64,000 nt of DNA from contig JAOANR010000010.1 in NCBI GenBank assembly GCA_030278955.1, forward strand, positions 17,824,444-17,888,443. Direction: 5' to 3'. Below the pieces are notes generated by a model that saw nothing but the letters and a program-made list of their open reading frames with translations, did not search any database and had not been told where the DNA came from. Source of the DNA: Hygrophila difformis. Taxonomy: Eukaryota; Streptophyta; Magnoliopsida; Lamiales; Acanthaceae. The stretch's first letter is position 1, and every line of letters starts with the position of its first letter. Shown one piece after another: positions 6,397-54,266 of the stretch. A program made the translations under genes and the position numbers.

Positions 6397-6417
6397 AGGG
6401 GGAATCCTCATGCAAAC

Positions 6418-10986: not shown

Positions 10987-10987
10987 T

Positions 10988-11883: not shown

Positions 11884-13388
11884 TTTGCTCAAAACTGGTT
11901 CCCAACACAAACCCTCCATCATCATATTCTACCCCCTTCATATTGACCAACCATTTGAATTCATTACATTGGAAGAAAATTCCAACAGCCTCTTTATTAC
12001 ACATCTCATCAATTATAAATTTAACATATAGCTAGTGATGAATGCAACTTGGGTTTATTTTTTATTAATTTTTTGTTTTACAACTTCGGGGCATGAATAG
12101 TTAAGTATTAGAACTATCTATTGTTTAAAATATTTTCAAAATTTCGGGTTTCGGAACACCTCGAAGCGAAATTTCACCTACTCGAAATTTCGTTCGAAAC
12201 TCGATAATTCCCGAAATTTGACCGAAATTTTCCGAAATTTCCCAAAAGTATTTTTTTTTAAAAAAATGTTTTTTTTCTAAATTTTAAAAATATATTTTTA
12301 AAAAAATTAGAATTTACGCTTGGACACATATTGATTATGTCATCCAATTAACTTATTTTCATAGATTAAGTCAAGATCATCTCAATTAACATGGTGCGTG
12401 ATATCAAATTATCAACCATATTATCAAAATATTGTATCATTGAATGAGTATTGTTAGCATATTACTAATTATAGAGCAACAAAGAGGATGAATTTTGAAA
12501 TATCTTCATTTTCATCCTCTCAGAATCTCAATGTGGTTTTCTTAAAAAAATTGCAAATATTTCCGGAATTTCATCCAAAATTTCAAATATTTTCGAAATT
12601 TCCGTAAATTTAAATATCCGATATAGACACCGATACCGATATTTAAAACCTTGGAACTATCAATCATTCACATTTATCAAGAAAACCCTATTCAATTGGT
12701 GGGGTTAAAATATGTTCCGATCTTGGTCATTAATTATATTATTCTCTAGTGGTCAGTAAACAAGTGTTGGCCAAGATGGTGTTGATTACTTAACTCGTTT
12801 GCTACTTGAGTAACACAATTTTAGGGTTTTTAATTGGCTATTGATTATCCATTTACTATAGTATTTAAATGAAATTAAATTGATTATTATACAATAACTA
12901 ACCCCATTGAGTATTGTATTCACATTTTTAAGAGTTCAATAATAGTGCCAGACTATATGTTAATAATGTCTTTTACCTATATAGTCACACATAATGATGA
13001 ATATAATGATAATTTTGAATTTTTTTGTCCATGATGATTAAGGCAATATTGATGGTTCGAATTCTATGATACGGTACATCTATCATCTTCATTCCTAGAT
13101 ACTTAAATTAATTATTTGATCGAAGATCTAACGTGGGTTTCAGAAGTGAATATATCAATACTACTGGACGTTGAGATGTTGAATGTTTTATACTTCAGTA
13201 ATAAATCAGACTTGAAATATTTGACTTGTCATACGAAATTAGCTTCCTACTATATCTAATCTCTATATATAATTACTTTAGTAGTAGTAGTGCAGTACTA
13301 TATTTGAAGAGCGCAAGTGAAAATCCTTTTAAATCTTAATTTCATTTTCATCCGTTAGATCACAAATTGCAATTGAAATTACGGCCGT
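11884..13388. other. Intergenic, with diffuse GAAATTTC-rich repeat
   Basis: No gene seen. Around 12130-12260 and 12540-12650 there are many CGAAATTT/AAATTTCG motifs in both orientations, ending in CGATACCGATATTTAAAACC, a degenerate plant repeat whose type I cannot name. The remainder is AT-rich unique-looking sequence. Confidence 0.4.
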
Positions 13389-13909: not shown

Positions 13910-13914
13910 GGACC

Positions 13915-16220: not shown

Positions 16221-17395
16221 AGTTGATATCAAAGCCATGTATATTTTAAAGCTATTATTTTAAAGAGACCAAATTTTTAAACCCAAATTTTTAATAGCCC
16301 AAGTTTCTAAAGCCCAAATATTTCTAAGCCCAAATTTTTAACCCACTACCTGTACTTTATTTAGAGCCCGAAGTTTATTATTTTGGGCCCAATATAGTGG
16401 CCCGATGATTTTAATCATTATTTTAAAACTATAAAGTATTATTTCCATGGAATGAATTTCATTTTTAAAATCCATGGAAAAGTAAATATATATGTATATA
16501 CATTGCATAAAATATTTTCGAGAGGTCGCATATGCATATATATATACATACATATTATGCTAACCTTTCTAAGTGAATTATATGTGTTAAATAACGCTCT
16601 TATTTTAGATTTCGGCTTGACATCGACTTAGAAGTACTAACTTGAGACTAATCTTGCCTTAGTCTTAGATCTAGATCACCTATGCTTATCGCACCTGTAT
16701 ATGTCTTTGTCATTCCTATAATGTAGATCTTTACCAGTACGTTATATATTGACTTATCGAGGAACCTTACTGAATATGAGGGTTGAGTACCCATTTGGAT
16801 TTAAGATGGAGTTGGCTAAGAATTTGGATTGAGAGAAATATTCCTTGAGAATTTTGGACATTAAAGAATGGTCATTGGACTTAGTCGATGAATATGGTGA
16901 GGGTACCATGCCATGTTGAACCAAATAGTGAGGAGGCTAACAATGGCGTCCCTCCAAATGTAGAAAACCTAGAAGTATTAACTTGGGGATTCAATTACCT
17001 TTGGGAAAAGGGGTATAATACTCAAAGAGGTATGGTGAAATCCCCATAACAATTAAAAAAAAAAATTGAATTCTTTTCGAAACCTAGTAGAATTGATCTT
17101 AGAAACTTTGATTCGGAACCGATATGAGGCAAAGATACTTGAATTGTTTTTTAAGATCAATTCATTGGCAGTTATGGGAACATAACTGAAGCCCTAAAGG
17201 GGAGAGGATGTGATACCCCGTAAGAAGTCGTCAAGCATTGAGGTGAAAATTTATTTTTTAGGACCTCAATATTTTTGTGCGTGCAACTGCTTGTCCACGT
17301 TGAATTAGCGCAATGCGAATAATTTTATTCTTGGCATTACCATTTCGAGTATGACAGAACTTCAAGGACAAAGTTGATTTCTAAGGAGGGTAGAC

Positions 17396-19761
17396 TGTAA
17401 TACCCACGATTTAGTCGCATTTAAATCACGTTTAAAAAGAAATGGAATTAAATTCAAAGATAAAAAAGAATTTAAATTGCAAGAGCCCGTGAAGTCGGAA
17501 ATAATTTAATTAAATAAATTATTGCACGGGATCCAATATTTGACCAATTCAAGATTTCAAATACGAAATTAGTTCGAGTTCGAAATGAATTTAAAAGAGG
17601 AGTTTATGGTCCGAGAATAACCCGATAAATAAGCCCAAGAAAAATAGATGGAGAAAGGCCAAAAAGAGGGGGAAAAAAGCCAATGGGATAGCACGGTCCG
17701 GCCCAGGCCCAGGCCGCACGGTGGCCGCGCGGTCTGTGTCAAAACCGCGCCGCTTCAGACAGCAACTGCCCGAACGGGATTTGGCCACCCGGCTCCAGAT
17801 TTTTCGCCATTTGCTCACTTCTTGCGCCCAAGACTTCTCCAACTGATCCCTGGACGTGTGAGAGTGGTTAGGAGTTATAAATACCCCAAATCTAGCTCCT
17901 AGATACTTTTCAAACACCCCATATCACTTCTCACCTTCAAAATTCGGAAAAAACCTTAGTTGTGAGCATTTGAGGACGATTCCGACGGAGAATAAGGAAA
18001 GTTGGACGAGATCCAACACTCCACAGCCGTAGGTTGGTGGTATGAGGAAGTTTCAATCCATATTTCATGTAATTTGGTCGATCATAGAGTTAACATTAGG
18101 TTTTTCTCTCTTATAATCATAAATCGGGACTGAAGAGAAGGAGATGAGGAGAATTGGACTTGCTCAGAGGTTCCGGAGACCGTCCGAACAAAATCCAAGA
18201 CCCTAGATCTCATCTCCTATAAGTTAATTCTTACCATACCAATTTTGGAGATTTAAATTGGATGGTTTAGGTAATAGAAGTGAAACACATAAAATCTATC
18301 ATTAGAGAACTCACCCCGCGCGGTTTCTAAAATCTGATAACTCGGACCTCTTCGGATCTTCAAATGGAAAAATGTAAAACTACAAACTTGTTCCTAACAC
18401 ACCAAAGAAAATTTTGTAAAAATTTCACGAATTTTAGTCGATATTTGGACCCTAAAATTTTATCTGGTTTGTTCTACGTTTCTGTTAAATCAAAAAATAT
18501 GACAAGTTTATAATCCAAACTAAATCAGTGTTTTTATACTAGATCCGGTCCGAAAGTTGTAATAATCATGTCTAGTTTATGCCCATAAATTTTCGTAATT
18601 TTTGAAGCCCGCTTGGTATGTCGAAAACTCGTTTTAAAACACTTCGCCAAATCTGTAAACTGACAGCACGTAGTTCTGTGAAAGATCTCGATTTTTTTAC
18701 TTAGGTTCGTATCCTATTTTGAGATACTTCATCTAATGTAAATCGTTCATATTGGTCTTATGAACTTACTGTATAAAATTTCATGGCATTCGTCTTAGAA
18801 ACGGATTTTTAAAATCGAAAGGCGTAAACTGAGACGTGAACGTTTACTATATATGTTGAATTCAGATTTTTCTAATCTTATGGGTTGAAATCCCTATTAA
18901 AATAATAAAAATTATTTTTTTTTAAAAAAAAACCCCGTTACACTAGGTTGAGCTAGATCTCCACTTGCGAGTTAGGGGGTGAGTACTCCGCAGACTGCCC
19001 CTCTAACTGTTCACGTCGTGCCTAGATGGACGATGGTGATTTTGTGATGGCCTGCCAAAACGGCAGTTGAAATACATGGCCTGCCCAAACGACAGTTGAA
19101 ACACGAGTCTGCACTCTTGGTTGTATCCGTATGGGTTACCGAGGCTCCGGAGTAGTACTGTGTATGGCGGATACCAGGATTGCTTCGGCAATACTGAAAC
19201 TTGATACTTGATATTTAGAAACTTGATACTATGATTGTGGCGTCCTCCTCTTGGTTAACGGGAACTAAAAGACTTAATTGTGCATTTTAATTATTTTAAT
19301 TATTCACATGCTTTTAAATCCTTGTCTGCGCTTTTATTTAGGTTTTTCATTCAATGCATTTAGTATCTTATCACCTTTTTAAATTACATCCACTCTTAAA
19401 TTTTTGCAATTTAAATTCTTATGAATTATTCAGTCAAATCCTATTTCGATATTATGTTAAAACTGAGCATGATTAAAAAGGTAAATTTTTATTAATTAAA
19501 TTTTTAAACCCAATATTGCTATGTTAGGAATTAACTTGCTTAGTATTTTATATACTGATAAAACGTTGCTATTTTCTTTTTTAGAATATGGAGATATGGC
19601 ATAAGCATTTACATGCATCGGGCTCGGAAAATAAAAACATTACCATTATGTTGCATCCTTTTTTATTAAACTTAAATTACTCACTGTGTTTTGACCATGT
19701 CAGCCCAATTTTATTTTCCGCTGCTATTTACTCTGAATAATGAATGAGATAGACTAAATTA

Positions 19762-27726: not shown

Positions 27727-28269
27727 TTAATTCGCCGCCGGCGCCGCCTTCATCTGCGTTGCGGGTTTCTCCATATTTTGAATTCGGCGAAGGACATCAC
27801 CCCTTAGGGTTTCAATGGCGGCCCAGTATTCTTCAAGTTCCTCTTCATCATCTTCCATTAGTAGTACATCGTTTACAGGCTCAACAAACCAGAATGCATT
27901 GGCGCCATTTTCTTTGATTTTCCTCTCCTTTTCCTTTTCAATCTGCAATTCCCTCACAGCTTCCGTATAAAATAGTCTCCCAATGTCGGCACTAATTTCA
28001 GCATCGTCGCCTAAACCCGACGACGAAGCTTCCCCGCTTTGGAATCGGCGGAGCACCGATTCCACCGAGGGGTTGCCGAAAGTATACATTTTTCCGGCCG
28101 GCGACTGCACCAGAATCCCAATTTGTGCACTGCAGAGAACGGAGAGCTCGCTGGCCTTTTTGAACAGACCCGCTCGGCGCTTGCTGAAGGTCACCATCAA
28201 ATTTGATTTTTTCTCGATTTTCCGAATAGGGATTTTCCTCTTGCCCAAGGTTTTCTTGGTGCTATCCAT
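27727..28269 (-). CDS. Type I (M-alpha-like) MADS-box transcription factor
   Basis: 180 codons, single exon, as usual for type I MADS genes. The start at 28269 (MDSTKKTLGKRKIPI) is preferred over the ORF start at 28392 because the MADS domain begins there. MADS domain residues about 10-68: KRKIPIRKIEKKSNLMVTFS, KRRAGLFKKASELSVLC, AQIGILVQSPAGKMYTFGNP. The rest is acidic with a short helical region (EREL-type EAVRELQIEKEKE) and a C-terminal segment AAIETLRGDVLRRIQNM. There is no K-box, so it is type I. These factors bind CArG-like DNA as dimers and mostly act in female gametophyte and endosperm in plants (family knowledge). No damage seen. A palindromic copy of a related C-terminal region lies at 50.92-51.14 kb. 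Confidence 0.85.
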   Translation of the reverse strand: MDSTKKTLGKRKIPIRKIEKKSNLMVTFSKRRAGLFKKASELSVLCSAQIGILVQSPAGKMYTFGNPSVESVLRRFQSGEASSSGLGDDAEISADIGRLFYTEAVRELQIEKEKERKIKENGANAFWFVEPVNDVLLMEDDEEELEEYWAAIETLRGDVLRRIQNMEKPATQMKAAPAAN

Positions 28270-30415
28270 CACTCTCACAAGTCTCTGAATTACTTGAATT
28301 GATTTATTTGATCTTTTGTCTTTCTTTCTCAGAATTGACAGCGGAGAGAATACGATTTTTCTGTCGTGCGATAGTTGAAATAGAAAGAGCAAAGGATAGG
28401 GGTGAGGGTACTTATAGCAGTAATTGTCTTTGCTTCTAATGTTTCTTATTTATTACCGGTTACCTGTTGTTATGATTGGATAGATTTCTTCTAACGGCTA
28501 GTTTTAAAAAACTCTTCTTTTGCTTGTGTTTTTATCCAGCTGTAATCTTTTCTAGCTTGTGTTTTTACCCAGCTGTCATCTTTAATTACACCAGTTTCTT
28601 GAATCTTGATTCTTGATTCTTGATTGTTGAATATTCTTCCTATTTATCATGGCTTTTCTTTCCAATCTTCTCCCTGTTCATGGGTACCGATTAATTTCCC
28701 CCTGTCGACATTTCCGGTGAGAGACGCAGCAGGGAGGTAAGTTTTATGGGTTCTGTTTTATGGATTTTGTTGTTGGCTGTTAAATTTCTTGATTTTGGGT
28801 GTAATGCTTGTGTGGTTGGGAAATTATGTGGCTGTAGTAGTAATTGAAAGTCGGATTACAGTAGCGAATTCTTTTTGTCCTGTGAATCTGGTAGAAACTT
28901 TTATGGGTTTTGTTTTATGGATTTTGTTCTATTGTTACTGTGTGAATTTTTGGTATGAGGAAATATGTAGAGTAGGAAAACCTTCGACTTTGTCCTTGGT
29001 AGTATAATTTATACTTACAAGATTTGGGGGGTGTAAGGGATCAATTTGCAGCCTTTTTGATATGGAAATGGTAGAATTGGTAGACTGCAGTGTCTATCCT
29101 CCTAAAAGAATTGGGAGTTTATGTTACGGGTTATATGGTTAATTATTTATTACCATCAGATTTCATGAGAAAAGAGAGTAGCAAGCAGCACAGTTCTCAT
29201 TTATAAATTTCACATATTGAGCTAAAACTACAGTTCGGAATTTTGCATAATCTACAGAAATATAGCATACCAGGATAGCATGGCTTGTGTTGAATCCTCA
29301 TATTGCAAGACCATTATTACTGCAAATCCCAAGCTGTTGATTGTATGTTTAACTAAATGCGGCATCAACACCAAATGCTGAAGACCCTGTAAATGATGAA
29401 AAAACTCAAGAAACAAAAATGTCAGGCATGCGGAAGAATAATATTCACAAACAACCTGTAGTTTATTACAATTAGATTTTTTGATGAGCTCCTCTTTAAT
29501 TTTCTTGGCTGAACTTTACTGCAGAATTAGGAAATAAACTGAATTAGGGTATGCAATCTAAATTTTGATAGTTTCTGAGTTGTATAAATCACATTTACTA
29601 TTTGGTAGATAGTAAATGTATAAATCACATTTGATAGATAGATAGATAGAGAGAGAGATGCATGGATAGATCAATCCCTCATCTTATGCTTTTTTATTTT
29701 TTTATTTTTTATTTTGAATTTTTAAATAAGGTTCTTTTTGAACTCGATCTGTGTTTCTTCAGGATTATCTATGAACATGCAGGATTAGTAACACATGATA
29801 AGATCAACATACATTAATGTTGTGATAATAACAAGGATTGTTCCCGTTAAAATCATCATAAGTTTTATTCATTGTCTTTCTTGATTTCTTCGTGATATAT
29901 TCTTGTAATAAATATGCTTGTATAGTTGTATGTAGTGAGAAACCACAATAGGATCTTTTTTATCCATTTCAAACTATGAGAGGACAGTATGATATTTTTT
30001 GGCCAAATTTTCATTGTATTTCCAATCCTTTGTAATCTAGTATACACCTCTAGGTAAGCAGATGCAGATGAGTTATGATCCATTGGCATATCCGTGTTTT
30101 GCCATGCTACATCATATTCTCTGTAGAATTCAAGCCATGCTCCTTCGTCCAGTGCCATCCAGGGGGTTTTGCGGTCGGCTCCAGTGTCCTCACTGGTCCG
30201 ATATAACCTTCAGGTACTATATTATGCTGTCTTCTTTTACTGAATTAACCTTAATGGTTCGATTGCACCTTCTTTAGAAATCGGGGGTTATCTTTACTAG
30301 AGATAGGAGTCTTATGGATGTATGTTATCCACGGCTCAATACCCTCAAGTTTCTAGAGTTTATAATATGAAGTATTATAGTAATTTACTTTTGCAACTGT
30401 AGTTCATATAGCAAA
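28270..30415. other. Intergenic, with MADS promoter side and simple repeats
   Basis: At 28517-28585 a unit of about 33 bp beginning GCTTGTGTTTTTA is repeated in tandem in the MADS upstream region. A TTGATTC run lies at 28602-28625 and a GATA/GAGA microsatellite at 29631-29660. A short minus-strand reading ALDEGAW near 30150 looks like a Copia gag crumb. No gene recognised. Confidence 0.45.
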
Positions 30416-35656: not shown

Positions 35657-36010
35657 TCTATTAATACTATATAAATGGGAGAGCAAAAAATTTTGCCAAA
35701 TCTCTATTTCAATCACAACCATCCGATGGCAGCATAAATTCCAATTTCGACCGTAGGATGCCAGCTTCAATCTTAATTTCTAACCGTTTGATTCTGACTT
35801 CCATTGTGTGTGATTTATTACGGATCACAAATCACAGATGCCTGCGTCTCTCCACCTAAATCCGCGATTCTCTCCAATAGCACCTCCTCCGCATCCAATC
35901 GGCGGTCTTAATTGGGCCTGGCATTGCCGCCGCCGTTCTGGTCTCGTCTCAGACCGCCCCCGCCGCCGTTCTGCCTTTCTTCAATTTCACTCTTCTATCT
36001 TCTATCTGTA

Positions 36011-36213
36011 ATGGGCGGTTCTAAATTAGGGCTCGTACTTGCAACGCCGCCGCTGCACCGCCATCTGCCTAGCCCTAATCTCTCCACGGTCTCCGCTTCG
36101 TGGGCCCTTGCCCTGCCTCAGCTCGCAGGGCCGCCACTGCCCCGCTTTCGAAGCCGCCATAGGCCTCAGTTCCACTCCACCGGCAACCCTACTCCGCTCC
36201 CGCTCTCGTGCAG
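36011..36213 (+). pseudogene. Transit-peptide-like first exon in Helitron 1
   Basis: GC-rich exon-like block starting MGGSKLGLVLATPPLHRH with a clean donor CAG/GTATAA at 36213/36214. Pro/Arg/Ser-rich, as in organelle targeting exons. Its phase (2) does not fit the next exon (phase 0), so it either belongs to another source gene or an exon is missing. Confidence 0.4.
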
Positions 36214-36454
36214 GTATAAAATCGTGTTGCTTTATTGTTCAATTTGGGGATTTTGAGTTGGAGACCGTGAATTAGGGCTTTTAATTTGAGTTACTTGTAT
36301 GCTTACGAGTAGCGCTCCCGGCAACCCTGCCCGGTGGAACGTTGTCACTACTACATATTTTTTTCAAGTGACTGGTCTTCGTCCGTTATATGTGCATTTT
36401 TTCTTAAGTTTTTAGGCAGTCTAACAAATGCACTTTTCTTAATTTTGAACGCAG

Positions 36455-37573
36455 TCCTTGAAGTTGCATGTTTTAAAGCTCAGCAGCGATATTGATGAAC
36501 TGAAGCTGAAAATGGTACCCTTTTTTTCGGGAGATTTTTTCATTTGTAGCCAATTACATGGAATTATGGGAAGATAAAACTGAATTTTATAAAACTAATT
36601 AACATCATAGTTTTATCCCAGGCCAAAGTTGAAGATAGAAATAGTGTACAGCTGACAGAAAATCAGGAACAAGGATTTGTAAGTTATATTTGTTTAATGA
36701 TTTGCAGTTTTCGGTTTATGCTTTAATGATTTTGTCATTTCAACCATTTACTGATGCTTTCTTTGTATCATTGCCACTAAGGTTGACCAGGAGATTAGCG
36801 AAAACAATGATAATGATGATAAACTATCTCATGAAAATCCAGAAATTGATTATGGTTCATTGCCTGGAGAGTGTGCCAATGAGGTAAAGTCAGCAGGCCA
36901 CTCTGCATGAACGTACATGTTTCCATTTTGTATGTATTTCCTTTCAATAATGAAAAATTTACCAGATTCAGCAGATAGACGAGATTAATTTTGTTTTTCA
37001 AATTTTCACTTGTCTGTTTATTTTCCTTTCAATTGCAAAAAGGCTATTGAAAGTAGGAGGATTGGTGAGACTTCCAATAAACTTGAGGTTTCCATGCATG
37101 TTCCAAAAGACTCCGTGCCTCTTCTTGGACAAGATTTACGAGGACATGCGACGTTAAGGCATGCAGTTAAAGGAAATTATCTGTTTGACTCTACAGAAAC
37201 CGAGATTCAGTGGGGATCGCAACCTAAGGGAACAAAGGGTTTTCCAAACCTAAGCGAGCAAAGTGGAAATGCTGAACTACCGAACAATTTCAGGGTGAAC
37301 TATGAAAGTTCTTTGTTTTCTGCTTGTATTTATTTTGTTTTATCTAAGCATTTTCTGTCATTAAGTAAATTTGATACATTATTTGTTGATTGTAGACTGA
37401 AGATCAAACAAGATCTTCAGCAGTTGCTAAAACGGAACCATCCCATGCTCAGAAGGGCAAGGATGAGAAGTCACCAACAATGCCTTTTCGAGCACCACAG
37501 CTTTCTAACCGAGAGAGGCTAATTTTAAGAAAGCAAGCCCTGCAGATGAAAAAACCACCTGTGCTTGCAGTTG
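36455..37573 (+). pseudogene. CRM-domain (CRS1/YhbY) splicing-factor fragment
   Basis: Five exons in one continuous frame with matching phase 0 borders: 36455-36514, 36622-36678, 36791-36883, 37043-37294, 37396-37573, where the last ends LSNRERLILRKQALQMKK then PPVLAV. That last motif is the start of a CRM RNA-binding domain as in the CFM2/CFM-type chloroplast group II intron splicing factors; the first exons are acidic linker (EISENNDNDDKLSHENPE). The CRM core that should follow (for example a KSNIVTG-like loop) is absent; the next exon-like piece 37651-37696 (PSSAVLKNAASTLA) is unrelated. So the copy stops at an intron or exon edge within the domain. Confidence 0.55.
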
Positions 37574-38499
37574 GTAATGATACTCATTTTTTTTTTGTAT
37601 GAATTATGAGGTGTAGTGTTCTGTTTCAGATTATTGTTTCCTAAATGCAGATCCCTCGTCTGCAGTTCTAAAGAATGCCGCTTCAACTTTAGCAAGGTAA
37701 TGATACATTTTTGACCATTTGTTTTAGATTTGATCAAGTGAGAAGGTTCCCCCATACTGACCATTTGAATTTTATGTTTTTCAATCAATGGATGTTGCAC
37801 CTCTATTGTGATCATGATTTTTCCTGTTGAGTATCTTGGGTATGGTTCTTAGGTTTGTTAATAGTTCTTTTGGATTGTGCAGAGTGTTTAATTTTTTGAA
37901 AGGTAGTCCCTTTGTGATCAAATTGGCTTCAGCGGTGGGTGTTGTTAAAATCGAGGTAGACGTTTTGTTTTTGCTGCTGTGTAAATTGTTGTTCAAGTGA
38001 GTGCTGTAAATTGGGGCAAAGCTAGCTTCACTGATGCGGTAACTGAAGGGAATACTCCCTGGGATTTGTCAGCCAGGCTATTGAATCATCCCAGTCAATC
38101 TTTCTCTTTTTAATTTGTATCCTAGAAACTTAAGCTTCTGTTTAACAAGATCTAGCAGTTTGGAAGGCTTCGGGACAGAATTCTCCGCAGAATTACTGCT
38201 GCGGATCTATATGTCACGAAAGCAAGATATTTATATGTTGAAAGATATCAAGTTATCAAAACCTTATTCTTAAAGTTACATGGTGGAAAGATATTTATGT
38301 GTTCACTGAAGTTGGCATTTACATTGTTATGGCATGTTAGAATTATATTTGTTTCAGTTGGTATTTGTAAAAGGTACTGTTGTAAACTTGTTTTTGTATG
38401 CTATGCTCATTTTGGTTGCTTTTACTTTCTTAGTTAATAGTAAAGAAACAGGCTGTGACCTTGACACATCTAGGGACCTTGGAGGTTGTATGCTATGCT
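37574..38499 (+). other. Intron-like and unassigned sequence in Helitron 1
   Basis: Contains the short exon-like 37651-37696 with proper AG and GT borders, and coding-looking scraps such as WGKASFTDAVTEGNTPWD near 38015-38070 and GFGTEFSAELLLRIY near 38165-38210. I cannot assign them. Confidence 0.35.
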
Positions 38500-39117
38500 C
38501 GTTTTTGTTACATTGAAGACTGAGTTGAGGTCAACCAATGGACAATTATATGCTCTGGTGAGGAGAGCTGCTGCAACAAATTTGGGGAAGTTTGCTGCCA
38601 CTGTGGAATCTTCTCATCTCAAGACAGATATCATGTCCATGTTTGGGGAACTGACACAAGATGGTAATTGTACCTATTCACATACATGTGAATGATAAAA
38701 TAATACAATCGAATCGGTTGAACCGATTGTACAGATTGTGTAGCTTAAGAATATTCAAATGGAGAAAAATATGATTTTTTTTTTGCGCAAGTTGAGACAG
38801 CATGGTTATACTCAATGATATTTAAGGGGTAATTTCTTTATTTAAAGACAGTATGATGCTAGAGGATTACTCTTTTTCAACCTGGTACTGTAGCATTTAG
38901 CTTGTGTTTGATATCTTTATTAATTTTGGTGAGTGTTGGACGTAAGATGTAACAAGACACTTGTGGTTATGAATTAATACTAAAAGTTCATTTTCCTTCT
39001 TTCTCAGATCAGGATTCTGTTCGCTTGCTGGCTGTTGAGGGCTCTGCTGCTCTTGGAAAGTTATTGCATCCTCAAGATTGTGTAGAACATATACTCCCCG
39101 TAATTGTCAGCTTCTCG
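38500..39117 (+). pseudogene. PP2AA: PP2A scaffolding subunit A fragment
   Basis: PP2A subunit A is a HEAT-repeat scaffold joining the catalytic and B subunits. Exon about 38500-38663 reads VRRAAATNLGKFAATVES, HLKTDIMSMFGELTQD; a phase-1 intron with GT donor follows; exon 39008-39117 continues DQDSVRLLAVEGSAALGKLL, PQDCVEHILPVIVSFS. This equals one to two HEAT repeats of the family. The start is damaged (ELRSTNGQLYALVRR where several residues between Leu and Val are lost). The exon then passes without an intron into ARIA-like sequence at about 39118. Confidence 0.85.
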
Positions 39118-39419
39118 CGTTCTGAGGATTCCGCTATACATTATAAAGTGGTATCTTTCTTGTTTTCATGCTCTATAACTTCTTATTACTTATCATTGAT
39201 TTCCACTTGCGTCCTGGCATATAAATTTAAGAGACTAAAGATGTGGATAATGCTTACCTGTAATGCGGAGCTTTTATATGCAAGCAACTTGTCCTGATTC
39301 CTAATCATAGATGTCTTAAATTATCAGGTTGGTGTCATTGGTAATCTGGTGCACTCATCCCCAAACATCAAGAAGGAAGTCCTGACTGGAGCTTTGCAAC
39401 CTGTCATTGCTTTACTTAG
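39118..39419 (+). pseudogene. ARIA-like armadillo/BTB protein fragment
   Basis: Directly fused in frame to the PP2A piece: RSEDSAIHYKV (39118-39150), intron, then 39328-39419 VGVIGNLVHSSPNIKKEVL, GALQPVIALL. This is a conserved armadillo-repeat segment of the plant ARIA/ABAP1 proteins (usually HYEAVGVIGNLVHSSPN). One residue is lost at KKEVLT-GALQP. Confidence 0.75.
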
Positions 39420-40010
39420 GTATGATTGCCTACATTGTAGAAAAGCCTATGGTCCTTACTGACCTTTTTGGGAAGACTTAGATCATGCCATGACTTGAAC
39501 AACTCTTTGGCAGTATGATTGTAGCTGTTGGTCAATGAAATAGAGAGATTAGATGCATTATGATATCTTTATTTTAGACTATCTCTTGTTGCAGCACACC
39601 ATGAGGGTTATTTATTGTAGCAAACAGCACGAAAATAAATGCTTTATTGAAGATGACATCTTTGTGAGCACTGAGTAAGTAGCAAATGTTCATTACATGA
39701 TGGCCATAGTGTGCTGGAATGCTGTGTAGAGAAGTTTTATTAATTAATGATTAGTTTCTGTATCTGCATATATGCATTCTTCAATTATCAATTACCCACA
39801 AACACTGTTCTATGTTAAAGATCACCCAGCTTTTTGAAGTGGCTGTCCCGTTTACTTTCAAGTTTCAACATTTCTTGTTTAATCTCCAAGAGTACACCAA
39901 CTACCTGGGCTTAAAGTAAACTCGTTCTATTGCTGCATAATATGGTTTGTGCCCCGTGAGTAACTTCAGAAATTGTAATAACCATAAAAAGCATTCTGCT
40001 GTGCAAGTTT

Positions 40011-40218
40011 ACAATTTACTATTCTATCAGTTTTGTGTTGCTAAACTTCTGCTTGTTGCAGGCACAAAGTATTGATATTATTGGTATTATTATTATTATC
40101 CAGAAGTAAATTATATATTTTTCTTTATTTGTGATTTACTATTCTGATGTGCAAGCATAAAATTTACTATTCTATTAGTTTTGCGTTGCTAAACTTCTGC
40201 TTGCTGCAGGCACAAAGT
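40011..40218 (+). repeat. Tandem duplication of an intron/exon border
   Basis: A block of about 85 bp containing TTTACTATTCTAT, TTGCTAAACTTCTGCTTG and TGCAGGCACAAAGTA occurs at about 39995-40069 and again at 40135-40218. The second copy serves the uridine-kinase-like exon; the first ends in a dead duplicate of the splice acceptor. Confidence 0.8.
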
Positions 40219-40296
40219 AGTGATAGTTGAAGGTAACTACTTGCTTTTGGATGAAGATGTGTGGAGGGATGTCTCCTCCATATTTGATGAGAAGTG
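40210..40296 (+). pseudogene. Uridine-kinase/phosphoribulokinase-like exon
   Basis: Single exon with AG and GT borders: HKVVIVEGNYLLLDEDVWRD, VSSIFDEKW. VEGNYLL is the conserved central motif of plant P-loop uridine-kinase-like proteins. The P-loop exon is absent. Confidence 0.7.
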
Positions 40297-40629
40297 GTAA
40301 CATACATCTTCTGATTCTTGTATTGTTCACTGCAAAATCAACAACTGATATCCTTGATTATACTCTGTTAAGATATAGGCATACGGTTTAGTACTACCTC
40401 CCTCTCTTTTTACTTTTTACTTTTTACTCCTCCCTTTTTGGACTGTTTTGAAGTAGGGCATATTTGGTAACTTTCTCTCTCCATCTACTAAATAAAATAC
40501 TCCCATTCTCCTGTTTCCTTTAATCCCATGGCTAACCCAAATATAATACCTAAAGCGAAATGGAGGAAGAATTTGGGAGAGTTTACTTTAACTTGACTCC
40601 TTTTCTGAATATGCAGGATCAAACCCTAG

Positions 40630-41224
<595 letters not shown>

Positions 41225-42162
41225 ATGCCTCCTTACGGGACACCAGTTCCATGCACAGCTTTATATCCTCATGGGGGACTCTATGCTCATCCTAATATGC
41301 CTATGGTAATCAAGGACCTGTTAGCACATATTCTTGAAGTAAATTGGTAGTTTATTTTGCATTCTTGTACTGGATGATTAATGTGGTTGGTGTTCAAAAG
41401 GCTTTTGCATTATATGTGCCTATCTGTTTTCTTGACAGGCCCCAGGTGTTGTTTCTGGAAATGCTGAATTAGATGGGAAAGGTACTGAGGGAAGGGACAA
41501 CGCTTTGGGGAAAAAAGACAAAGTGCCTTCTGGAAATCATGTCTTGGCTGGTGGCAAGACTGGAGATACTGGAAAAGTTGCTTCTGGCTCTGGAAACGAT
41601 GCTGGTACTCAAAGGTGGGTTTAGACTTTAGACATTCTACTTCTTGAATTGTTGTGTGTATTTTGACAATTTTGATCTTGCCTATGAGTGATTACGTTAA
41701 ACTATTTTTGGTCTGAACATGAGTTTTATTTTTCTTTTGACCAGTGCTGACAGTGGGAGTGAAGGTTCATCTGATGCAAGTAATGATGACAATAACCAGG
41801 TATTTTCATATTCTCTAATTTAAACAAAATGTACATTGTACTGTTGCAGTGTTTGCGGCTGAACCGGGGAACTTGGCACATTTGTTTGTTAAGATACAAT
41901 AGATATGTGTGCATTTGTGTGTGTGTGTGTGTGTGTGTGTGGTTTAATTGTTTTGAGTTTGCCTTTTGGGGAACTGATGTGGCTATAAAAATTCAAACAA
42001 TGATGATTGAGACTTGGGAGGTCAAGTAATATGAGATACTAAACGAGTACATCCTGAAATGTAATGAACTTTTTAATCTTACAGGATGAACGGGAACTAA
42101 AAAGACAAAAGAGGAAACAGTCTAATCGGGAATCTGCTCCAAGGTCAGGATTCCGAAAACAG
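41225..42162 (+). pseudogene. G-box-binding bZIP (GBF, bZIP16/68-like) fragment
   Basis: Begins within the ARF1-GBF hybrid exon (to 41305) with MPPYGTPVPCTALYPHGGLY, AHPNM, the Pro-rich activation region of GBF proteins. Next exons 41439-41614 (ELDGKGTEGRDNALGKKDK), 41745-41799 (ADSGSEGSSDASNDDNNQ) and 42085-42162 (DERELKRQKRKQSNRESAPR then SGFRKQ). The last is the DNA-binding basic region, normally SNRESARRSRLRKQ; here the invariant Arg has become Gly and another Arg is Pro, so DNA binding would be lost. The leucine zipper is missing. Confidence 0.85.
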
Positions 42163-42634
42163 GTACAATGATTTTCCACAACTGTGATTAGGGTTTAATT
42201 GTAAGGATCAGATTATTATTATTGAATTGGATTCCAATGATTGTTATATTCCTTGTCAGTTGTCACCAGTTAGTATCCTTTATTACAGGAGTCATCTTTT
42301 CTTCTTATATTTTAATTGTCAAAATGACTCTTCAAACAGCTCCTCATAAAGAACCATGATGTGTAATAGACTGTAGGCTATTTCTTGCAATCAATCAACT
42401 TGTTTACAAAACATAAGCTACACCATTTCTCTCAACCAATTTTCTTTTTCTAAATTGTTTAAAGTTGACTAAAATTATGAAGACTAGGCTAGGATCTGTT
42501 GGTATTTTGTTTCTTTCCATTTTAAGATTTTTAAACCACTATCATGCATGAATACCGGCATTCCAAAATCCAGAATTTTCCAAGTGAAATGTTCTTCTCA
42601 CGTGGTATGTGCACGTTGGAACTTCTCTTTGTAG

Positions 42635-42762
42635 GTACCTTTCTAATTGAGTGCACAGAGACAGCATCCGTTTTGCAGAATGCTACACAGAACTCTCTTG
42701 TTCTTCTTGATGAATTGGGAAGAGGAACAAGCACTTATGATGGATATGCTATAGCATATGCT
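42635..42762 (+). pseudogene. MSH6: MutS homologue 6 ATPase exon
   Basis: Exon with AG and GT borders: [18 protein letters not shown], then Walker [21 protein letters not shown]. This is the ATPase segment of mismatch-repair protein MSH6 ([14 protein letters not shown] is typical for plant MSH6). The Walker A exon is absent. Confidence 0.8.
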
Positions 42763-43492
42763 GTGAGATTCCTATTTCTTTCCTATTATATTCTTTTGGT
42801 GGTGTTATGGAAATATCCCTTAGATTCTTGGCATACCTTACTATACAAACTTTATACAGAAAAAATAACAATGTAGAACTCCATTTTGTTTTAACTTCTT
42901 TTTATAATGTCTGATTTATAGCGTTACTTCGTCTTGTGTAAACAATATTTCAAGAACTTTTTTACAGTTCGCTACATTATTCTTGTCCAATGGTGCAGCT
43001 TATATTTGTACTGGTGCCTTAATTTTATCCCTGTTAAATTATATCTTTTCTTTTTCTATATTGGAATGGAGTTTATATGATGTTGTCCAGGCATGATAAT
43101 GGGGGCTTCTGCGTCATCGGTTTGGTTCAACATTAGGTGCCCCATCCATGTACAGAAGCACCAATAATTGATTATAATTTGGCTCTTCTGTTTCAGCCTA
43201 TGCTCATGCTTGGCATAACCCTTGTTGTGTGATTGAGCGTAGTCTTCCCGTACTGGCTCATAACTGTATTTGTCATTGTTTTGTTCATTGGTAAGATGAA
43301 AGATCAATTCTTATTTTTGTAAATAGTAGTTGCATTATTATAAGCTACAGAGATGGATGATTATTCATTGAGTTTCCAAGAGTTACAGTTATATATGAAT
43401 TGCTTACTTAGAAGTGTTTCGACATTTTTAGAATTGTTAAATTGTTGAAGGTGATTGGCACATTTCTTAACATCTTTCTTCTCACTCAACAG

Positions 43493-44560
43493 AAACATCT
43501 TCTCGATCTTTTGCCAAGGGAATTGAGATGTGGAAGGAGGAAACTTTGGTCAAGGTTTGTTGGCTCCCTAAACCCTAAACCCTAAACCCTGATTTGTTTG
43601 ATTGAAATGTGTCTTAAGACAAACTTTTTCTGAAAGGCCGCATACAAAGTTGTTTTTCTAAGTTCATGTTGAATTGCTTCAAGATGATTGTTACATTTTT
43701 AATTATTTTAAATTCGTTGTCGTGCTGCAAAAAAATCGATTGAATGTAAGATAAACATAAAATCTATTGTCACGGTGAATGTAAGTAACTCGATTGAATA
43801 CCACCAATTCAAGGGGTTATGAATGTAAGTAACTCTATTCTCTTATTTTTCTCTAAATCAGTACTGATTGATGCCGAGTGTGAATCTTTGGTTCCTAAAG
43901 AGGATAAAATGCTCTTGTTGAGCATATCGTAATCTACTTTCTGAGTTGTGTCTGTCTCTATATTTCATCCTACGTGTTCACATAAAATCCCTTTGTATTC
44001 CAGCAAATTATGAGAGGCAACCTTAATCTTAAGAGATTTCTTGTGCTGCTGGTTATATGGCTTTGCTTCTTACTTGTTCAGGTGACCAAGGTAACCTTAC
44101 ATGGTGTAATATTTTTCAGTTTCCAATGAATAATCACCTTTCTATGTCTTAACTCTGGTACAGTTGTTGAAACTACAATAAAGGACTTCGTTCCAGCTCT
44201 AATAAAATGGGGAAATGAGCTGAATCATATTTTGCAAGTTATCCTCTCTCGAATCTTGGGCTCCGCTCCGGTAACTCTGCATATATGTTTTCAATTCTTG
44301 AGCAATGTCATGCTGTCAATTCTATCAATGCATTATGTCTTCCAGTGTTGCCCTCCTCTTTCAGGGGTTGAAGGTTCCATTGAGTCCCATCTTCGTGCAT
44401 GAGGTGAAAGAGAACGTTGGATAGTTGAAGTTCTGTTGCGGCTTCTTTGTGAACTGCTTTCACATATTTACAAGAATGTTGTTGCCGCGTGCCCATTTTC
44501 TGTACTTCCAGATTCTACAGGAATTTTTTTTACTCAACCTCTTCTTCAACTGTATGCTGG
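43493..44560 (+). pseudogene. Unrecognised captured gene fragment(s)
   Basis: Four exon-like blocks with AG/GT borders: 43493-43554 (SRSFAKGIEMWKEET), 44004-44090 (NLKRFLVLLVIWLCFLLVQV, membrane-helix-like), 44164-44270 (TIKDFVPALIKWGNELNHIL, QVILSRILGSAP) and 44365-44560 (GVEGSIESHLRA stop GERERWIVEVLLRLLCE, then AACPFSVLPDSTGI, FTQPLLQLYAG). The last two look like parts of one large helical protein. A TGA interrupts the frame near 44401. I cannot name the sources; the first two blocks may come from other genes. Confidence 0.4.
43566..43590. repeat. Short telomere-type repeat
   Basis: Three and a half units of CCCTAAA directly after an exon donor in Helitron 1. Plant-type telomere unit; short runs also act as telo-box elements near promoters. 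Confidence 0.8.
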
Positions 44561-45237
44561 GTGAGCTTCTGAAGTCACTTGTGTCTTCTTTTATCCTTGA
44601 GTTAGTTGATTTGAAGTTTTTATTTGTGAGTCAGGAGCCCTTGGTTTAATGCTTATTGTACCAAAGAAAAACATACCAAAAAATTAAGGAATGGCCTGCG
44701 TTTGAGTGCTTGCATAATGAATGCTTTATCAGTTTGATTCGCTTGGCCTCTCTATTGCCACCAAAGGAAGACAACTTAAGAAATTGCATAGCAAGGGTAA
44801 GTGCAAGCTGTTGCCAATTGTGTTCATGCTGATCTTTTTGAACTACAGTCTTTGGCCTCTATCTGTATATCTCTTTCCTTTAGTCTCTCTGTACTTAGGG
44901 TTTTATGTTATTAAATACAGTTTTTGGCTGGCGATGACTTCACGGTTTGGCGAATCTTATTTGACATCCTGCAGGCCAGGTATGCGTTCGTTCAATTGCT
45001 TTTTTTTTTTTTCTATAATTTTATTTCATCCTTGATAAAAAATCCATTGAATCTATCTTGGCTCCAATAGACTTTCTACACGGGCTTTGACTTCTAGATC
45101 GATGTGCCACACGTGATAGCAACCATCATGAATTTGTTTCGAACCTGATAGTTACACATGATTTACACACCGATCATGTATATAAACCATTAACATCTGT
45201 TTTCTTTACCCTCTGTCTTAAATTTAGGTTATTCAAA

Positions 45238-46469
45238 TGAACATCGAAGAATATGTGAGCAAGCATATTGCAGAAGAACTGAAAATTAACCAGTCGTCTT
45301 AGTGTCCTTATGTTGTCGTTTGCTATCAGTCTTTCTATGATAATGGTGCTATCTCCATAATACTTGAGTATATGGATGGTGGATCTCTTGCAGATATCCT
45401 GAAGAAAGCTAACATGATTCCAGAACCATTTCTTGCTGCAATTTGTAAACAGGTGGTGTATGTATTCTTGTTTCAATATTTTGTTGATTTTTATCCTTTA
45501 CTGACGATGTTTATTTCAATGTTGGTGCTTAAAGGCTTGTGGTATCTTCACCATGAGAAGCATATTATACACAAGGACTTGAAACCTTCAAATTTGCTGA
45601 TCAATCACAGAGGTGAAGTCAAGATAACTGATTTTGGTGTCAGTGCTATACTTGTCAGCACATCTGGTCAAGCCAACACTTTTGTTGGCACATACAACTA
45701 CATGTCTGTGAGTATTTTGCATGCTGCTTTGCCCCCTTTATTTCTCTCTCTGTTCCAAAGTCAGTTAGAGGTGTAACATGGAGAGCACACACAGCCATTT
45801 TGCTAGACAACAAAGTGGCCTTTCATCGCTTTTGCTCTTGCAGTTTGATGCTTTCTGAACATTTACACTATGTTTGCATTTTCTGAATGATTTTTTTGTT
45901 AGCCTGAAAGAATCATTGGAAACAACTATGGTTACAAAAGTGACATCTGGAGCCTTGGTTTGGTTTTCCTTGAGTGTGCAGCTGGGCAATTTCCATATTC
46001 CTCACCACACCTAGAAGGCTGGGTTAATGTCTATGAGCTGATGGAAACCATTGTTGATCAACTAGCACCCCGTGCACCTCCTGATCAATTTTCGCCAGAG
46101 TTTTGCTCATTCATTGAAGCCTGGTAATTTAAACATTCTCCACATAACTTTTTGGGAAGGCATTGAAATACCAGATGTCTGAAAATCTGGTTGAGATGCT
46201 TGCATAACTATTTCTTGTTCACCTTCTTAAATTCAATCCCCTTAAAATGCACTCAGTGTATAAACTTATTACTGTAATTAATATACTTATCTAAGCACCT
46301 TCCTTGCAAATTTAACATTGAATATTCTTCAATTTTTTGTTCACTGAGATACTGATCATTTCAGTTCCATTTTTATATGCTTAATTAATAACATAACAGT
46401 AAATTGAGATTTTGTTATTATAATTCCAGTGTTCAAAAGGAACCCAAGGACAGACTTTCAGCCAAACGG
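45238..46469 (+). pseudogene. MAP kinase kinase (MKK1/2/6-like) fragment
   Basis: Exons 45238-45452, about 45524-45707, 45903-46123, 46430-46469 cover the kinase domain from VIQMNIEE to KDRLSAKR. Seen: the hinge [18 protein letters not shown], catalytic loop [13 protein letters not shown] (Arg of HRD is Lys), DFG in ITDFGVSAI, activation segment [11 protein letters not shown], and [17 protein letters not shown]. Missing: the Gly-rich loop and the ATP-binding Lys exon. A TAG at 45300-45302 replaces the CAG of NQSSQCPY, and exon 2 lacks an AG acceptor (ATGTTG before GTGCTTAAAG). MAPKKs phosphorylate MAP kinases in stress and cytokinesis signalling; this copy cannot. Confidence 0.9.
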
Positions 46470-46497
46470 CGATCGCTGGACGATGACGGTGGTGCTG
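46470..46497 (+). pseudogene. Short unknown tail fused to the MAPKK exon
   Basis: After SAKR the exon continues RSLDDDGGAG instead of the MAPKK sequence LMNHPF, then a GT donor. Source unknown; possibly an exon end of the gene that supplied the next piece. Confidence 0.45.
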
Positions 46498-47078
46498 GTA
46501 TCTCTTCTTCTTTTTTCTCTTCTTTTCTCCTATCAGTTGAAAGTTGTGGTTTTATGGTTATTTGATGCTTTTGTAATTGGTTGGAATTTTCGGATTGTAG
46601 TTCATTATTGTTTAGTTTGATATTTTTGGTTGTTTCACTTTATATCAAGATACACAATTTCTGACTAATTGGATATACCTCCAAAGCACGAGGAATTGTC
46701 GGGATGACATTCAATTGGAGTGTGGTTGACATTCAATTGCTTATGGTATTGCATTTTCAAGTGATTCTTTTTTTAAGGAATTTTAAGAATACGGTGTTAT
46801 TTTCCTTCCCTTCATTTTGAATGTTCATAATTTTGTCTTTGTAGGCAATTCATATTTGGAGTGTGAAACAAAGTTCATTTCTGAAATTTGAATTTGATTG
46901 AATGTACAGGTTGAAATTTAACCAACTTGATTATGTTTTGATTGTCTTCTGTCTTTGTTGTGGTATTATTGCTCCAATTTAAGTTATTTTTTTACATATA
47001 TTTATTATACGTGTTTGATTACAAATGTGTGTTTTAGTTGTCTGAATGACTTCTTTATTATTTGCAACTACAATTCAG
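46498..47078 (+). other. Intron-like spacer in Helitron 1
   Basis: T-rich sequence between the MAPKK hybrid exon and the MAP65 exon; no coding signal seen. Confidence 0.4.
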
Positions 47079-47297
47079 GATCAGAAAAAGATACATGATA
47101 TGCTCCTCGCTGAGAAAGAATCCATCTATGGGTCTAAGCCAAGCCCGCGGAGAAGCAGCAGCTTTAAGAATGGAAATGGGTACCGTACCTATGGAAATGG
47201 GTCGGCGACCCCCTCACCACGCCGGAACTCAGTTGGCAGTTCAAATTCGGAGCTCCTCACACCACGATCTTACTCTGGCAACCAAATTAGGAAATAA
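47079..47297 (+). pseudogene. MAP65 microtubule-bundling protein, C-terminal exon
   Basis: Exon after TTCAG: DQKKIHDMLLAEKESIYGSK, then PSPRRSSSFKNGNGYR, ATPSPRRNSVGSSNSELL, TPRSYSGNQ, stop at 47295. The KESIYGSKPSPRR motif followed by Ser/Pro/Arg repeats is the disordered microtubule-binding tail of plant MAP65 proteins. The spectrin-like domain is absent. It is the last captured piece before the Helitron 3-prime hairpin. Confidence 0.8.
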
Positions 47298-47379
47298 ATT
47301 GTTGTAGATAGGAACTCACATACACTTACCTATAATTATTTTTTCTTTCTCTATAGGCAGTTGTACATCCCTTTTACGC

Positions 47380-47405
47380 TGTGCATCGCACATGTATTTA
47401 ACTAG
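47380..47405 (+). other. Helitron 1 3-prime hairpin and CTAG terminus
   Basis: Stem TGTGC/GCACA with loop ATC (47380-47392), nine bases, then CTAG (47402-47405) before a target T. Matches the terminus of Helitron 2 (stem ATTGTGC/GCACAAT, same loop). Confidence 0.75.
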
Positions 47406-47416
47406 TATATATATAT

Positions 47417-47575
47417 TTTGGAGGAGCATTGGAGGCTTGGAAAGGGGTGGTGGGAGCGCATGCCACACAAATTACAATGGAATCAAAGGAAGGGATGGAG
47501 GTCGGTGGGGATCGAACCTCCAACCTTCCGTTGGAAGTCAAGGGACTTAACCACTTGGGCTAAGTCCTCATTCCC
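47417..47575 (-). mobile_element. tRNA-derived SINE
   Basis: On the minus strand it begins GAGGACTTAGCCCAAGTGG, with A-box TTAGCCCAAGTGG and B-box GGTTCGATCCC, the internal RNA polymerase III promoter of a tRNA-like head. The 3-prime part holds ATTTGTGTGGCATG, shared with two truncated copies near 26.5 and 26.9 kb, and ends at an A/T-rich simple tract. It sits just beyond the Helitron 1 terminus. Confidence 0.75.
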
Positions 47576-52184: not shown

Positions 52185-54266
52185 CTTCCTCTTTTTTTTT
52201 TTTATTTGCTATGAACCTACCCAACAAGCAGTCTAATGTATATTTTAAATTATTAATAACTCAAGTTCGGAATAAATAAAAATTCTAAAAATTCGGATAT
52301 TTGAAAACTACACGGCGAGAGGAATCTAACAAGATCCCACTTGTCAATATTTTTAACTTGTATAACTATGAAAAATAAAAATTAGGGAATGGTTATGGTA
52401 CTACCAATGTGAATGGTAGTACATCAAGACAAATCATCTCAACCATACAAAAATATCCAATGGCTATAAAATAAAAAGGGTAGAATTATCAAACATAAAT
52501 AATTATATCTTTAGTAATAAAATCATTCACAAAATCAATTTAGTGATTTCTATCCTTAAATAAAGTTCATATAAAAAATTTGCATAAGTTAGCCCTCTTT
52601 TGATACAATTCATGGCATAATAATAGAGAAATTATTTTTATTCATCTCTTTCACTCGTTAGTCTTTCATTCCTCTTAATTTGCTATTTTTCTATTTTGAG
52701 TTTCTAAAATATGATCTGATATTTAGATTCCTTGCATCAAGTAGATAAATTTTTATATAAAGAACGTCCAAATCCGAGCTCATTTGAGAAAGTTAGAGTC
52801 ATTTGAAGTTTGTAATATAAATTTTGTTCTATATACTACGTCGTTGAAATGGAAGTATAAGCTATGTCGCTGAATTGTAATGTCTCCATCGCTGAATTGT
52901 AAAGGCTCTGTCGCTGAATTACATAGTCACCGGTCGCTGAAATGTAAAGACTGTATTTTTTTAAAATCGTAATGCACTTTAAATGGCTCTAACTTTCTCA
53001 AACGAACTCGGATTTTGACGTTCTTTATATGAAAATCTACCTACTCGATGCAATGAATCTAAATTTCTCATAAAATTTTGAAAATTATAAATAGATAAAT
53101 ACCAGATTTTCAAAAGAAAAGATATCTTATGCTCGTTGTTTTGAAAATATGATATTTATATGTTTAGACTTTCTAAAATCTGAGAGAATATTTAAATTCC
53201 TTGCATTGAGAAGATAGATTTTCATATAAAGAACGTCCAAATCGGAGGTCATTTGAGAAAGTTAAAGCCATTTGAAGTTTGTCACATAAATTTTGTTGTA
53301 TTGGCTACGTCGCTGAAATGCATAGGCTATATCGCTAAATTATATCGCCTCCGTCGCTGAATTGTAAAACCTCCATCGCTGAATTGTAAAGCCCCCGTCG
53401 CTGAATTACATAGCCACCGTCGCTGAAATGTAAAGACTGTGTTTCTGAAAATCGCAATGAACTTCAAATGACTCTAACTTTCTCAAATAAACTCGGATTT
53501 TCACATTCTTTATATGAAAATCTATCTACTCGATGCAAGGAATTTAAATTTCCTATCAAAATTTTGAAATTACAAATTGATAAATACCATATTTTCAAAG
53601 GAAATGATATCTTATTCTCGTTATTTTAAAAATATGATATTTATCTGGTTAGACTTTCTAAATTTTGGTAGGATATTTAAATTTCTTGTGTTGAGTAGAT
53701 AGATTTTCATATAAAGAACGTCCAAATCCGAGCTCATTTGAAAAAGTTAGAGCCATTTGAAGTTTGTCATAAAAACTATATTGTATAGGCTATGTTGCTG
53801 AATTGTAAAACTCCCGTCGCTGAATTGCAAAGCCACCGTCGCTCATGTAAATGCTACGATTTTTTAAAATTGCAATTAACTTCAAATGACTCTAACTTTC
53901 TCAAACGAACTCGGATTTTGACGTTCTTTATATGAAAATTTACCTACTCGATACATGTAATCTAAATTTAGTATCAAATTTTAGAAATTCCAAAAAGAAA
54001 AAGTAGATTATGAGGGAGAGAGAAGTATGAGCATGAGAATTGAGAAAAATGAATAGAGATTATTTGGATCTTATTGAAATTACAATAGTACCCTTTGTAT
54101 TAATCTTAGCCATTGATTTCAATATTTCATCAATGGTTTGGATGTGCCACGGTACATCAAGAGACATGGGTCTCAACATCCTAACCAAAGCCTAAAAATT
54201 AAAGCAATCTAATGAATATTACTAAAATTTGGTTTGGCTAACCAATTCTGAACGGAGGAAGTATAA
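52185..54266. mobile_element. Stowaway MITE split by a foldback element
   Basis: The left part (about 52185-52383) begins near ACTTCCTC and has the family motif GAATCTAACAAGATCCCAC; the right part (54193-54266) ends GAACGGAGGAAGTA, the inverted terminal end. The 1.8-kb element between them has a direct repeat TAAAAATT at both borders. Order of events: Stowaway first, foldback element second. Confidence 0.6.
52384..54192. mobile_element. Foldback element of three palindromic units
   Basis: Flanked by TAAAAATT (52376-52383 and 54193-54200), an 8-bp target duplication (9th base differs). Ends share GGTTA motifs and, further in, ATCCAATGGCTA with (reverse) ATCAATGGCTAA. The interior has three tandem units spaced about 475 bp (about 52730-53060, 53205-53540, 53690-53960); each starts TATAAAGAACGTCCAAATC and ends with the reverse complement, so each is a palindrome. 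Between the arms are minisatellite copies of GTCGCTGAATTGTAAAG. No ORF. hAT- or MULE-like by duplication size. Confidence 0.65.

Follow-up and report, generated by a model that had tools for sequence, protein, structure and literature searches.

How can pieces of ten unrelated genes come to lie in a single orientation within less than 12 kb of a plant genome? This question is raised by a segment of contig C2 in the 915-Mb assembly (246 contigs) of Hygrophila difformis, which we analyzed within a window of 64,000 nt (G000:C2:17824444-17888443; "the window" is this whole stretch of DNA). An original prediction, made from the sequence, had described the segment as a Helitron transposon loaded with captured gene fragments. 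We find that it is a real, young and unusually rich Helitron of an already known gene-capturing kind, and a dense, readable example outside the grasses. Its boundaries can be given exactly, its termini are those of a family, and its gene content, several donor genes and microhomology at its joins can be read off directly. As a whole, the locus is very probably explained by a non-autonomous Helitron that was moved by RepHel proteins from elsewhere, with a mosaic built by template switching or end joining and then inserted into the tail of a short interspersed nuclear element (SINE).

The element starts with A|TCTATTAATACTATATAAA at 35657 (A|TC at 35656/35657) and ends with GTGCATCGCAC-ATGTATTTAA-CTAG|T at 47405/47406. 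The 3′ hairpin is located 9 nt ahead of CTAG and recurs in the C2, L035 and L014 copies, where the C2 copy has one loop base more (L0nn are labels of fetched genomic loci related to blocks of the element). After removal of the element in silico, the flanks rejoined as one SINE-like repeat with an unbroken TATATA tail. The target-site repeats CCACATGCAA of this SINE-like repeat are now 11.9 kb apart, with the Helitron between them. Because the flanks form one SINE-like repeat with its own target-site repeats, both Helitron ends were fixed without recourse to Helitron motifs. The rebuilt empty site moreover follows the plant-type Helitron insertion rule, i.e., 5′ TC, 3′ CTAG, an A/T target and no target-site duplication. 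For the SINE-like repeat, a first look gave 3,044 genomic candidates; 40 of these were scored. ARAGORN found no tRNA in the window, the SINE head included, and Rfam at the gathering threshold gave no match there.

These termini are shared with other genomic loci. A search with the first 344 bp, in which 40 of 44 candidates were scored, returned 41 matches including the window; the aligned copies were 81-95% identical. For the last 150 bp there were 785 first-look candidates in the genome, and the 40 scored, again including the window, were 94-100% identical. For the 3′ terminal module, 40 places were scored; the window aside, the match starts at query position 181 (47060) in 36 of them, at 182 in one and at 170 in two. 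Comparing 17 of the 41 5′ places with 45 3′ places, we obtained four further elements that pair both termini on one strand, with lengths of 7,889 bp and 10,452 bp on C2, 11,465 bp on C9 (28,976 bp if the more distant 3′ place is the partner) and 32,554 bp on C14. The 7,889-bp element was read at both ends and has the form A|TC...CTAG|T in an AT-rich target; the other three are known from paired places only. Neither the interior of the 7,889-bp element nor the compared parts of the C9 and C14 elements matched the window element beyond the ends. Other genomic copies hence share both termini around different interiors, as in members of one Helitron family. The A/TC start, the GTGC-ATC-GCAC hairpin and the CTAG/T end proposed in the original prediction were exact to the base, and other copies with the two termini, with which that prediction stood or fell, are present. 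Dense gene capture may not be typical of these siblings. On the minus strand of the window, at 56846, there is another 3′ end of the Helitron type; it has the same GTGCATCGCAC hairpin core, and CTAGT follows.

To describe the cargo, Pfam was run on three plus and three minus frames of the element, and the PDB search on the plus frames only. Pfam matched Arf, MFMR, MutS_V and Pkinase in the plus frames, together with bZIP_1 below its cut-off (E 0.0018, 18.8 bits, cut-off 27.6), and gave no match in the three minus frames. The PDB search added PP2A-A beta in two adjoining stretches (7xvk residues 159-215 and 213-267), ARF1, MutS/MSH and MEK1. Eight of the ten gene names rest on tool results, those of the CRM, uridine-kinase-like and RELCH pieces being supported through their donor genes. 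The ARIA-like and MAP65 pieces were recognized by eye and presumably carry the right names, and the MutS piece we take to be MSH6 rather than another MutS homologue. In L053, a longer MAP65-bearing relative, Pfam found no family. Identity in the block matches listed is 84-99%, mostly across 0.3-2.8 kb, and their ends are base-sharp; the gene-piece matches are therefore not due to chance. At E 1, no Rep or helicase family was found in six frames of the element, which hence does not qualify as an autonomous Helitron.

All ten named pieces are in plus orientation, and every multi-exon piece has kept its introns, i.e., introns lie between exons in the CRM, PP2A-A, ARF1, GBF, RELCH and MAPKK pieces. 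The nine gene pieces claimed earlier, all on the plus strand and with introns included, could thus be supported throughout (ARIA-like and MAP65 by eye, as presumed names). Their count has to be raised to ten, as the RELCH piece had been overlooked, and several pieces in 37593-38508 had been passed over as well. The introns speak against a route in which the pieces were copied via RNA or another transposon (Pack-MULE, CACTA), with Helitron ends present by coincidence; so do the exact ends inside a repeat with its own target-site repeats and the siblings that share these ends. As no supporting point was found either, we give this route virtually no credence.

Table 1. Features of the element, its insertion site and related Rep-encoding loci. 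Coordinates are window positions unless a contig is given.
Feature	Coordinates	Strand	Basis and remarks
Whole non-autonomous Helitron	35657..47405	+	11,749 bp; between A (35656) and T (47406); termini and empty-site reconstruction
5′ terminal module starting TCTATTAATACTATATAAA	35657..36348	+	GC-rich first-exon-like stretch to GT donor near 36215; exon reading by eye
Block B: CRM-domain gene, five exons with introns	36349..37592	+	Donor L017, C3:25.776 Mb; CRS1_YhbY in homologous L020
Filler, several pieces without gene name	37575..38508	+	37632-37947; 37980-38236; 38256-38481; 37575-37636 common to sibling L005
Block C: PP2A-A scaffold exons 38522-38662 and 39007-39150, presumed ARIA-like ARM exon 39328-39420	38509..39649	+	PP2A-A by PDB; ARIA-like by eye
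Block D: putative uridine kinase C227.14, exon 40211-40297 with introns	39645..40614	+	Donor L026, C12:24.338 Mb
Block E1: ARF1 exons 40645-40794 and 40907-40966, then GBF exons with MFMR	40609..41809	+	Pfam, PDB
Block E2: GBF bZIP exon 42085-42162	41800..42190	+	98.2% to L014
Block F: MutS_V exon ~42634-42765 (MSH6-like)	42184..42962	+	MutS_V 59-103; donor L030, C15:16.235 Mb
Block G: RELCH (LisH/HEAT, RAB11-binding) exons 44160-44963	43014..45051	+	Donor gene L036, C8:69.725 Mb
Block H: MAPKK exons between 45228 and 46466	45054..46465	+	Pkinase E 2.9e-38; MEK1 in PDB; ~135-bp deletion at 46124-46128
Block H3: no gene name	46466..46905	+	L009/L010 only, among fetched loci
Element stretches without gene name	37593-38508; 42963-43013; 46466-47059		
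3′ terminal module	47060..47405	+	Carries presumed MAP65-like last exon 47079-47294; by eye
3′ hairpin TGTGC-ATC-GCACA, then TGTATTTAA and CTAG	47380..47405	+	
Dispersed SINE-like repeat hosting the Helitron in its AT tail	47406..47569	-	tRNA-like head by eye
Left copy of 10-bp target-site repeat CCACATGCAA	35645..35654	.	
Right copy of 10-bp target-site repeat CCACATGCAA	47575..47584	.	Beside head of SINE-like repeat
Rep loci with ARF1-GBF block	C4:22536941; C5:28935749; C11:54479046; C15:38394281		TruB piece in two scanned, C5 and C15

Where did these blocks come from? A long search with 36460-47300 (300 candidates, 39 scored) gave 48 matches, the longest over 2,741 bp of the query, in blocks with sharp limits that recur across loci. 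Four apparently intact donors, those of blocks B, D, F and G, were found on other chromosomes (C3, C12, C15 and C8), so that gene pieces with introns stand in the element and their donors elsewhere, as in a gene-capturing Helitron. In L017, L026 and L036 the gene continues by eye on both sides of the captured stretch, and in L030 the MutS_V segments 20-62, 59-103 and 101-185 surround the captured exon; Pfam on one minus frame of L026 found no family. The uridine kinase is 84% identical to an Andrographis paniculata protein, and the RELCH gene of the host genome is closest to that of the same species (73%), followed by Paulownia and other Lamiales. The search for parent genes called for in the original prediction hence yielded four with their divergences; the source genes of the PP2A-A, ARIA, ARF1, GBF, MAPKK and MAP65 pieces were not located in this genome. 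Nor are the fragments simply adjacent intact genes, as the donors are not neighbours in this genome, to which the comparison applies.

The donors differ in how closely they match. The CRM block has 8/1241 substitutions against its donor over the whole block, the uridine kinase block 10/963 and the MutS block 5/778, i.e., these three pieces differ by 0.6-1.0% from their donors and look as if taken directly and recently from genes. With an assumed substitution rate of 7e-9 per site and year, 0.64% would correspond to ~0.5 million years. An 85-bp repeat in the uridine kinase intron (39993-40225) is older than the capture, because donor L026 also has it. These three blocks fit a scheme proposed for maize, in which the element would have taken every one of its ten pieces straight from a gene, with one capture per transposition. 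The RELCH block, in contrast, has 50/797 substitutions (6.3%) against its donor gene over 812 of 2,038 bp, and comes closer to L010 (2.2%), where RELCH and MAPKK are joined at the same point; the L009-L012 copies differ by 2.2-3.0%. Moreover, ARF1 and GBF recur together as a single block at six other loci, always with the same ends; at four of these the distance to a Rep domain is constant. The block differs by 0.9-1.3% from L013/L014. The shared joins refute direct capture for blocks E and G-H; for block C, the argument is the multi-copy pattern, as it is present whole in L021 and in part in L025, L028, L031, L034, L037 and L038. On the comparison of substitutions with donors and relatives, we rejected direct capture of every block and regard it as very unlikely.

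We rather conclude that the ARF1-GBF and RELCH-MAPKK blocks arrived, as far as sequence comparison can tell, via other multi-copy mosaics, the latter because L009/L010 span the same join, and the PP2A/ARIA block probably did likewise. Relatives of block H are L009, L010, L022-L024 and L027. L014 has the window element's succession of E1, E2 and family 3′ end, the last with CTAG|T. The filler pieces match at 99%, 91% and 93% on C14 (two places), C2 and C8. In L005 (C3:37302654) the 5′ module is followed 222 bp later by the sequence of 37575-37636, and this layout suggests that the CRM block may have entered between these two in the window element. L020 is a gene copy or a mosaic element, L021 has a weak Nckap1 match below cut-off, and the TruB piece is also found in L013, L016 and L019.

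Six joins or deletions could be matched base by base. Their overlaps are 5 (TATTG), 6 (ATATGC), 4 (TTTT), 7 (GTGATTA), 0 and 5 (GTAAT) bp; four are joins between sources and two are internal deletions, of ~992 bp in the E block and ~135 bp in the MAPKK piece. Microhomology of 4-7 bp is thus present at five of the six. Random joins reached 4 bp in 2.2% of 200,000 trials, so that five of six corresponds to p ~3e-8 under a null model of random positions drawn from the same loci, with the choice of alignment outside it. For the query across the GBF|MutS join, the left side is matched at five other places, from position 1 or 2 as far as 241, and the MutS gene covers 235-501 with 100% identity. As the left places end at 241 and the MutS gene starts at 235, the 7-bp overlap is repeated independently. 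None of the other 39 places scored (of 56 candidates) spans this join, and across 37560-38540 no other of 21 scored candidates spans the stretch; the window was listed in both searches. The first 48 bp of the MutS block (42184-42231), intronic in the donor, match 29 other places at 90-98% among those listed; this sequence is a dispersed repeat, with several copies paired on one strand, 1-2 kb apart.

The joins also bear on the idea that several Helitrons are nested in one another instead of one element with cargo. The genome is dense in Helitrons, and on C185 ~9 bp separate a 5′ end from another Helitron-type 3′ end ahead of it. In the window element, the joins pass straight from donor to block with microhomology. 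Of 14 CTAG sites per strand, the terminal plus-strand site alone has a hairpin of at least 5 bp at the right distance, and on the minus strand there is none. Nor did the 5′ 200 bp and the 3′ 150 bp of the family have a significant second match inside the element (best E 0.016, 19 bp), a comparison that is blind to Helitron families with other 5′ ends. As there are no internal termini of the element's own family, nested insertion was rejected, and we assign it hardly any weight.

Candidate sources of the transposition enzyme are abundant. PF14214 (Rep) had 764 candidates in the genome; 150 were scored, and many of those listed lie in open frames of more than 1,100 aa. The four best Rep matches stand on the same strand as the ARF1-GBF blocks of L015, L016, L019 and L018, at distances of 4,676, 4,677, 4,676 and 4,676 bp, respectively, from the block start. 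From this spacing, the ARF1-GBF block is seen to ride in elements with a predicted coding capacity for at least Rep. In the 4.5 kb after the ARF1-GBF block on C5, the 3′ end of the window element's family was not found.

We therefore propose the following origin. RepHel proteins encoded elsewhere in the genome would move the element. During rolling-circle copying, strand synthesis may repeatedly have switched template at 4-7 bp of shared sequence; alternatively, broken intermediates may have been end-joined at such sequences. Since the order E1, E2, 3′ end is common to L014 and the window element, an ancestor similar to L014 would already have had the ARF1-GBF block and the MAP65-type 3′ end. 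It would then have gained sequence from three genes (CRM, uridine kinase and MSH6-like) as well as parts of other mosaics (PP2A-ARIA and RELCH-MAPKK), and the finished mosaic would have inserted into the SINE tail.

Several points limit this account or weigh against it. The Rep loci are candidates identified by their Rep domain, and L021, the other block-C copies and L009-L012 are presumed to lie within Helitron termini. Pfam on the plus frames of the 7,889-bp C2 sibling (whole) and the C9 sibling (10 of 11.5 kb) found nothing over cut-off. The folding energy of the 3′ hairpin is unremarkable (z -1.25; 25 of 200 shuffles fold as well), and one of the six joins is without microhomology. The join pattern fits template switching or end joining alike, so that the two are not separated. 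Finally, no second copy of the whole mosaic was seen in the long search, which omits the window itself from its list and so cannot show the mosaic to be single-copy; the mosaic may thus not have moved since it was assembled.

The original prediction also considered chimeric transcripts. The ARF1 piece is without one base that six relatives have, and the RELCH piece is interrupted at 44400 by a stop that its donor does not share; the captured sequence resembles decaying pseudogenes, with nothing to suggest a coding function. Judged by eye, AG or GT is retained within a base or two at most exon borders, and a spliced chimeric RNA from the element would be possible. A more far-reaching scheme is that Helitrons here trade cargo, with RepHel-encoding and mosaic copies as vectors of exon blocks, and that sense-only template switching at 4-7 bp repeatedly builds multi-gene mosaics whose transcription starts in the shared 5′ module and whose transcripts are spliced into chimeric mRNAs; we consider it doubtful.

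Helitrons of maize offer the closest comparison. The helA elements, like the window element, have a CTAG 3′ end, multiple gene fragments and a stepwise build-up from related elements; stepwise capture has been argued for them (PMC3288121). They carry 0-12 gene fragments with a mean of 3, and ZmhelA1 is a putatively autonomous maize element with eight, whereas the window element has ten named sources and a eudicot host (PMC3288121). The words 'microhomology' and 'filler' are absent from the main text of that study. According to a review, maize Helitrons reach nine fragments and 39 kb (PMC6431247). The earlier statement that Helitron gene capture is known mainly from maize is dated: for Brassica napus, like the window host a eudicot whose Helitrons have captured genes, a 2025 study reports 3,156 capture events from 326 donor genes (PMC11986588). 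In the open literature, mostly at title and abstract level and with subscription journals largely outside, we found no eudicot element described with at least ten source genes. Non-autonomous Helitrons of Arabidopsis and rice share termini as the window element and its siblings do, but are short, with means of 950 and 441 bp, respectively, and captures are few, i.e., five in 565 Arabidopsis elements (PMC2575219). Helraiser/Helibat is a rolling-circle transposon whose 3′ hairpin is a termination signal and which captures host DNA; its read-through adds flanking DNA at the 3′ end, whereas most pieces of the window element are internal and joined at microhomology (PMC4778049).

Why maize Helitrons capture many genes and those of rice and Arabidopsis few was described as open in 2008 (PMC2575219). 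With a non-grass genome that has maize-like mosaics, hundreds of Rep candidates and recent captures, this question of capture rate can be reopened. As several steps can be resolved to the base in donor, acceptor and join, filler-DNA or template-switch models can be compared with read-through models. Moreover, the presence of the ARF1-GBF block next to Rep domains connects the exchange of cargo with elements that are possible sources of the enzyme.

Further features were noted in the window. Direct repeats at 6407-7302 and 10977-11886, 93% identical, surround minus-strand gag/pol pieces and form a long terminal repeat (LTR) retrotransposon with zf-CCHC (just under cut-off), gag_pre-integrs and Pol_BBD domains. 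The 2-kb direct repeats at 13914-15928 and 17395-19408 (88% identical) are possibly a second LTR pair. On the minus strand, an open frame at 27730-28449 has an SRF-type MADS domain; its third-ranked match is a Sesamum AGL62-like protein (54% over 70% of the query). Finally, a 22-bp unit (TCGCTGAATTRTAAAGCCTCC-like) occurs at 52677-54015 in tandem and inverted repeats within a 485-bp period.

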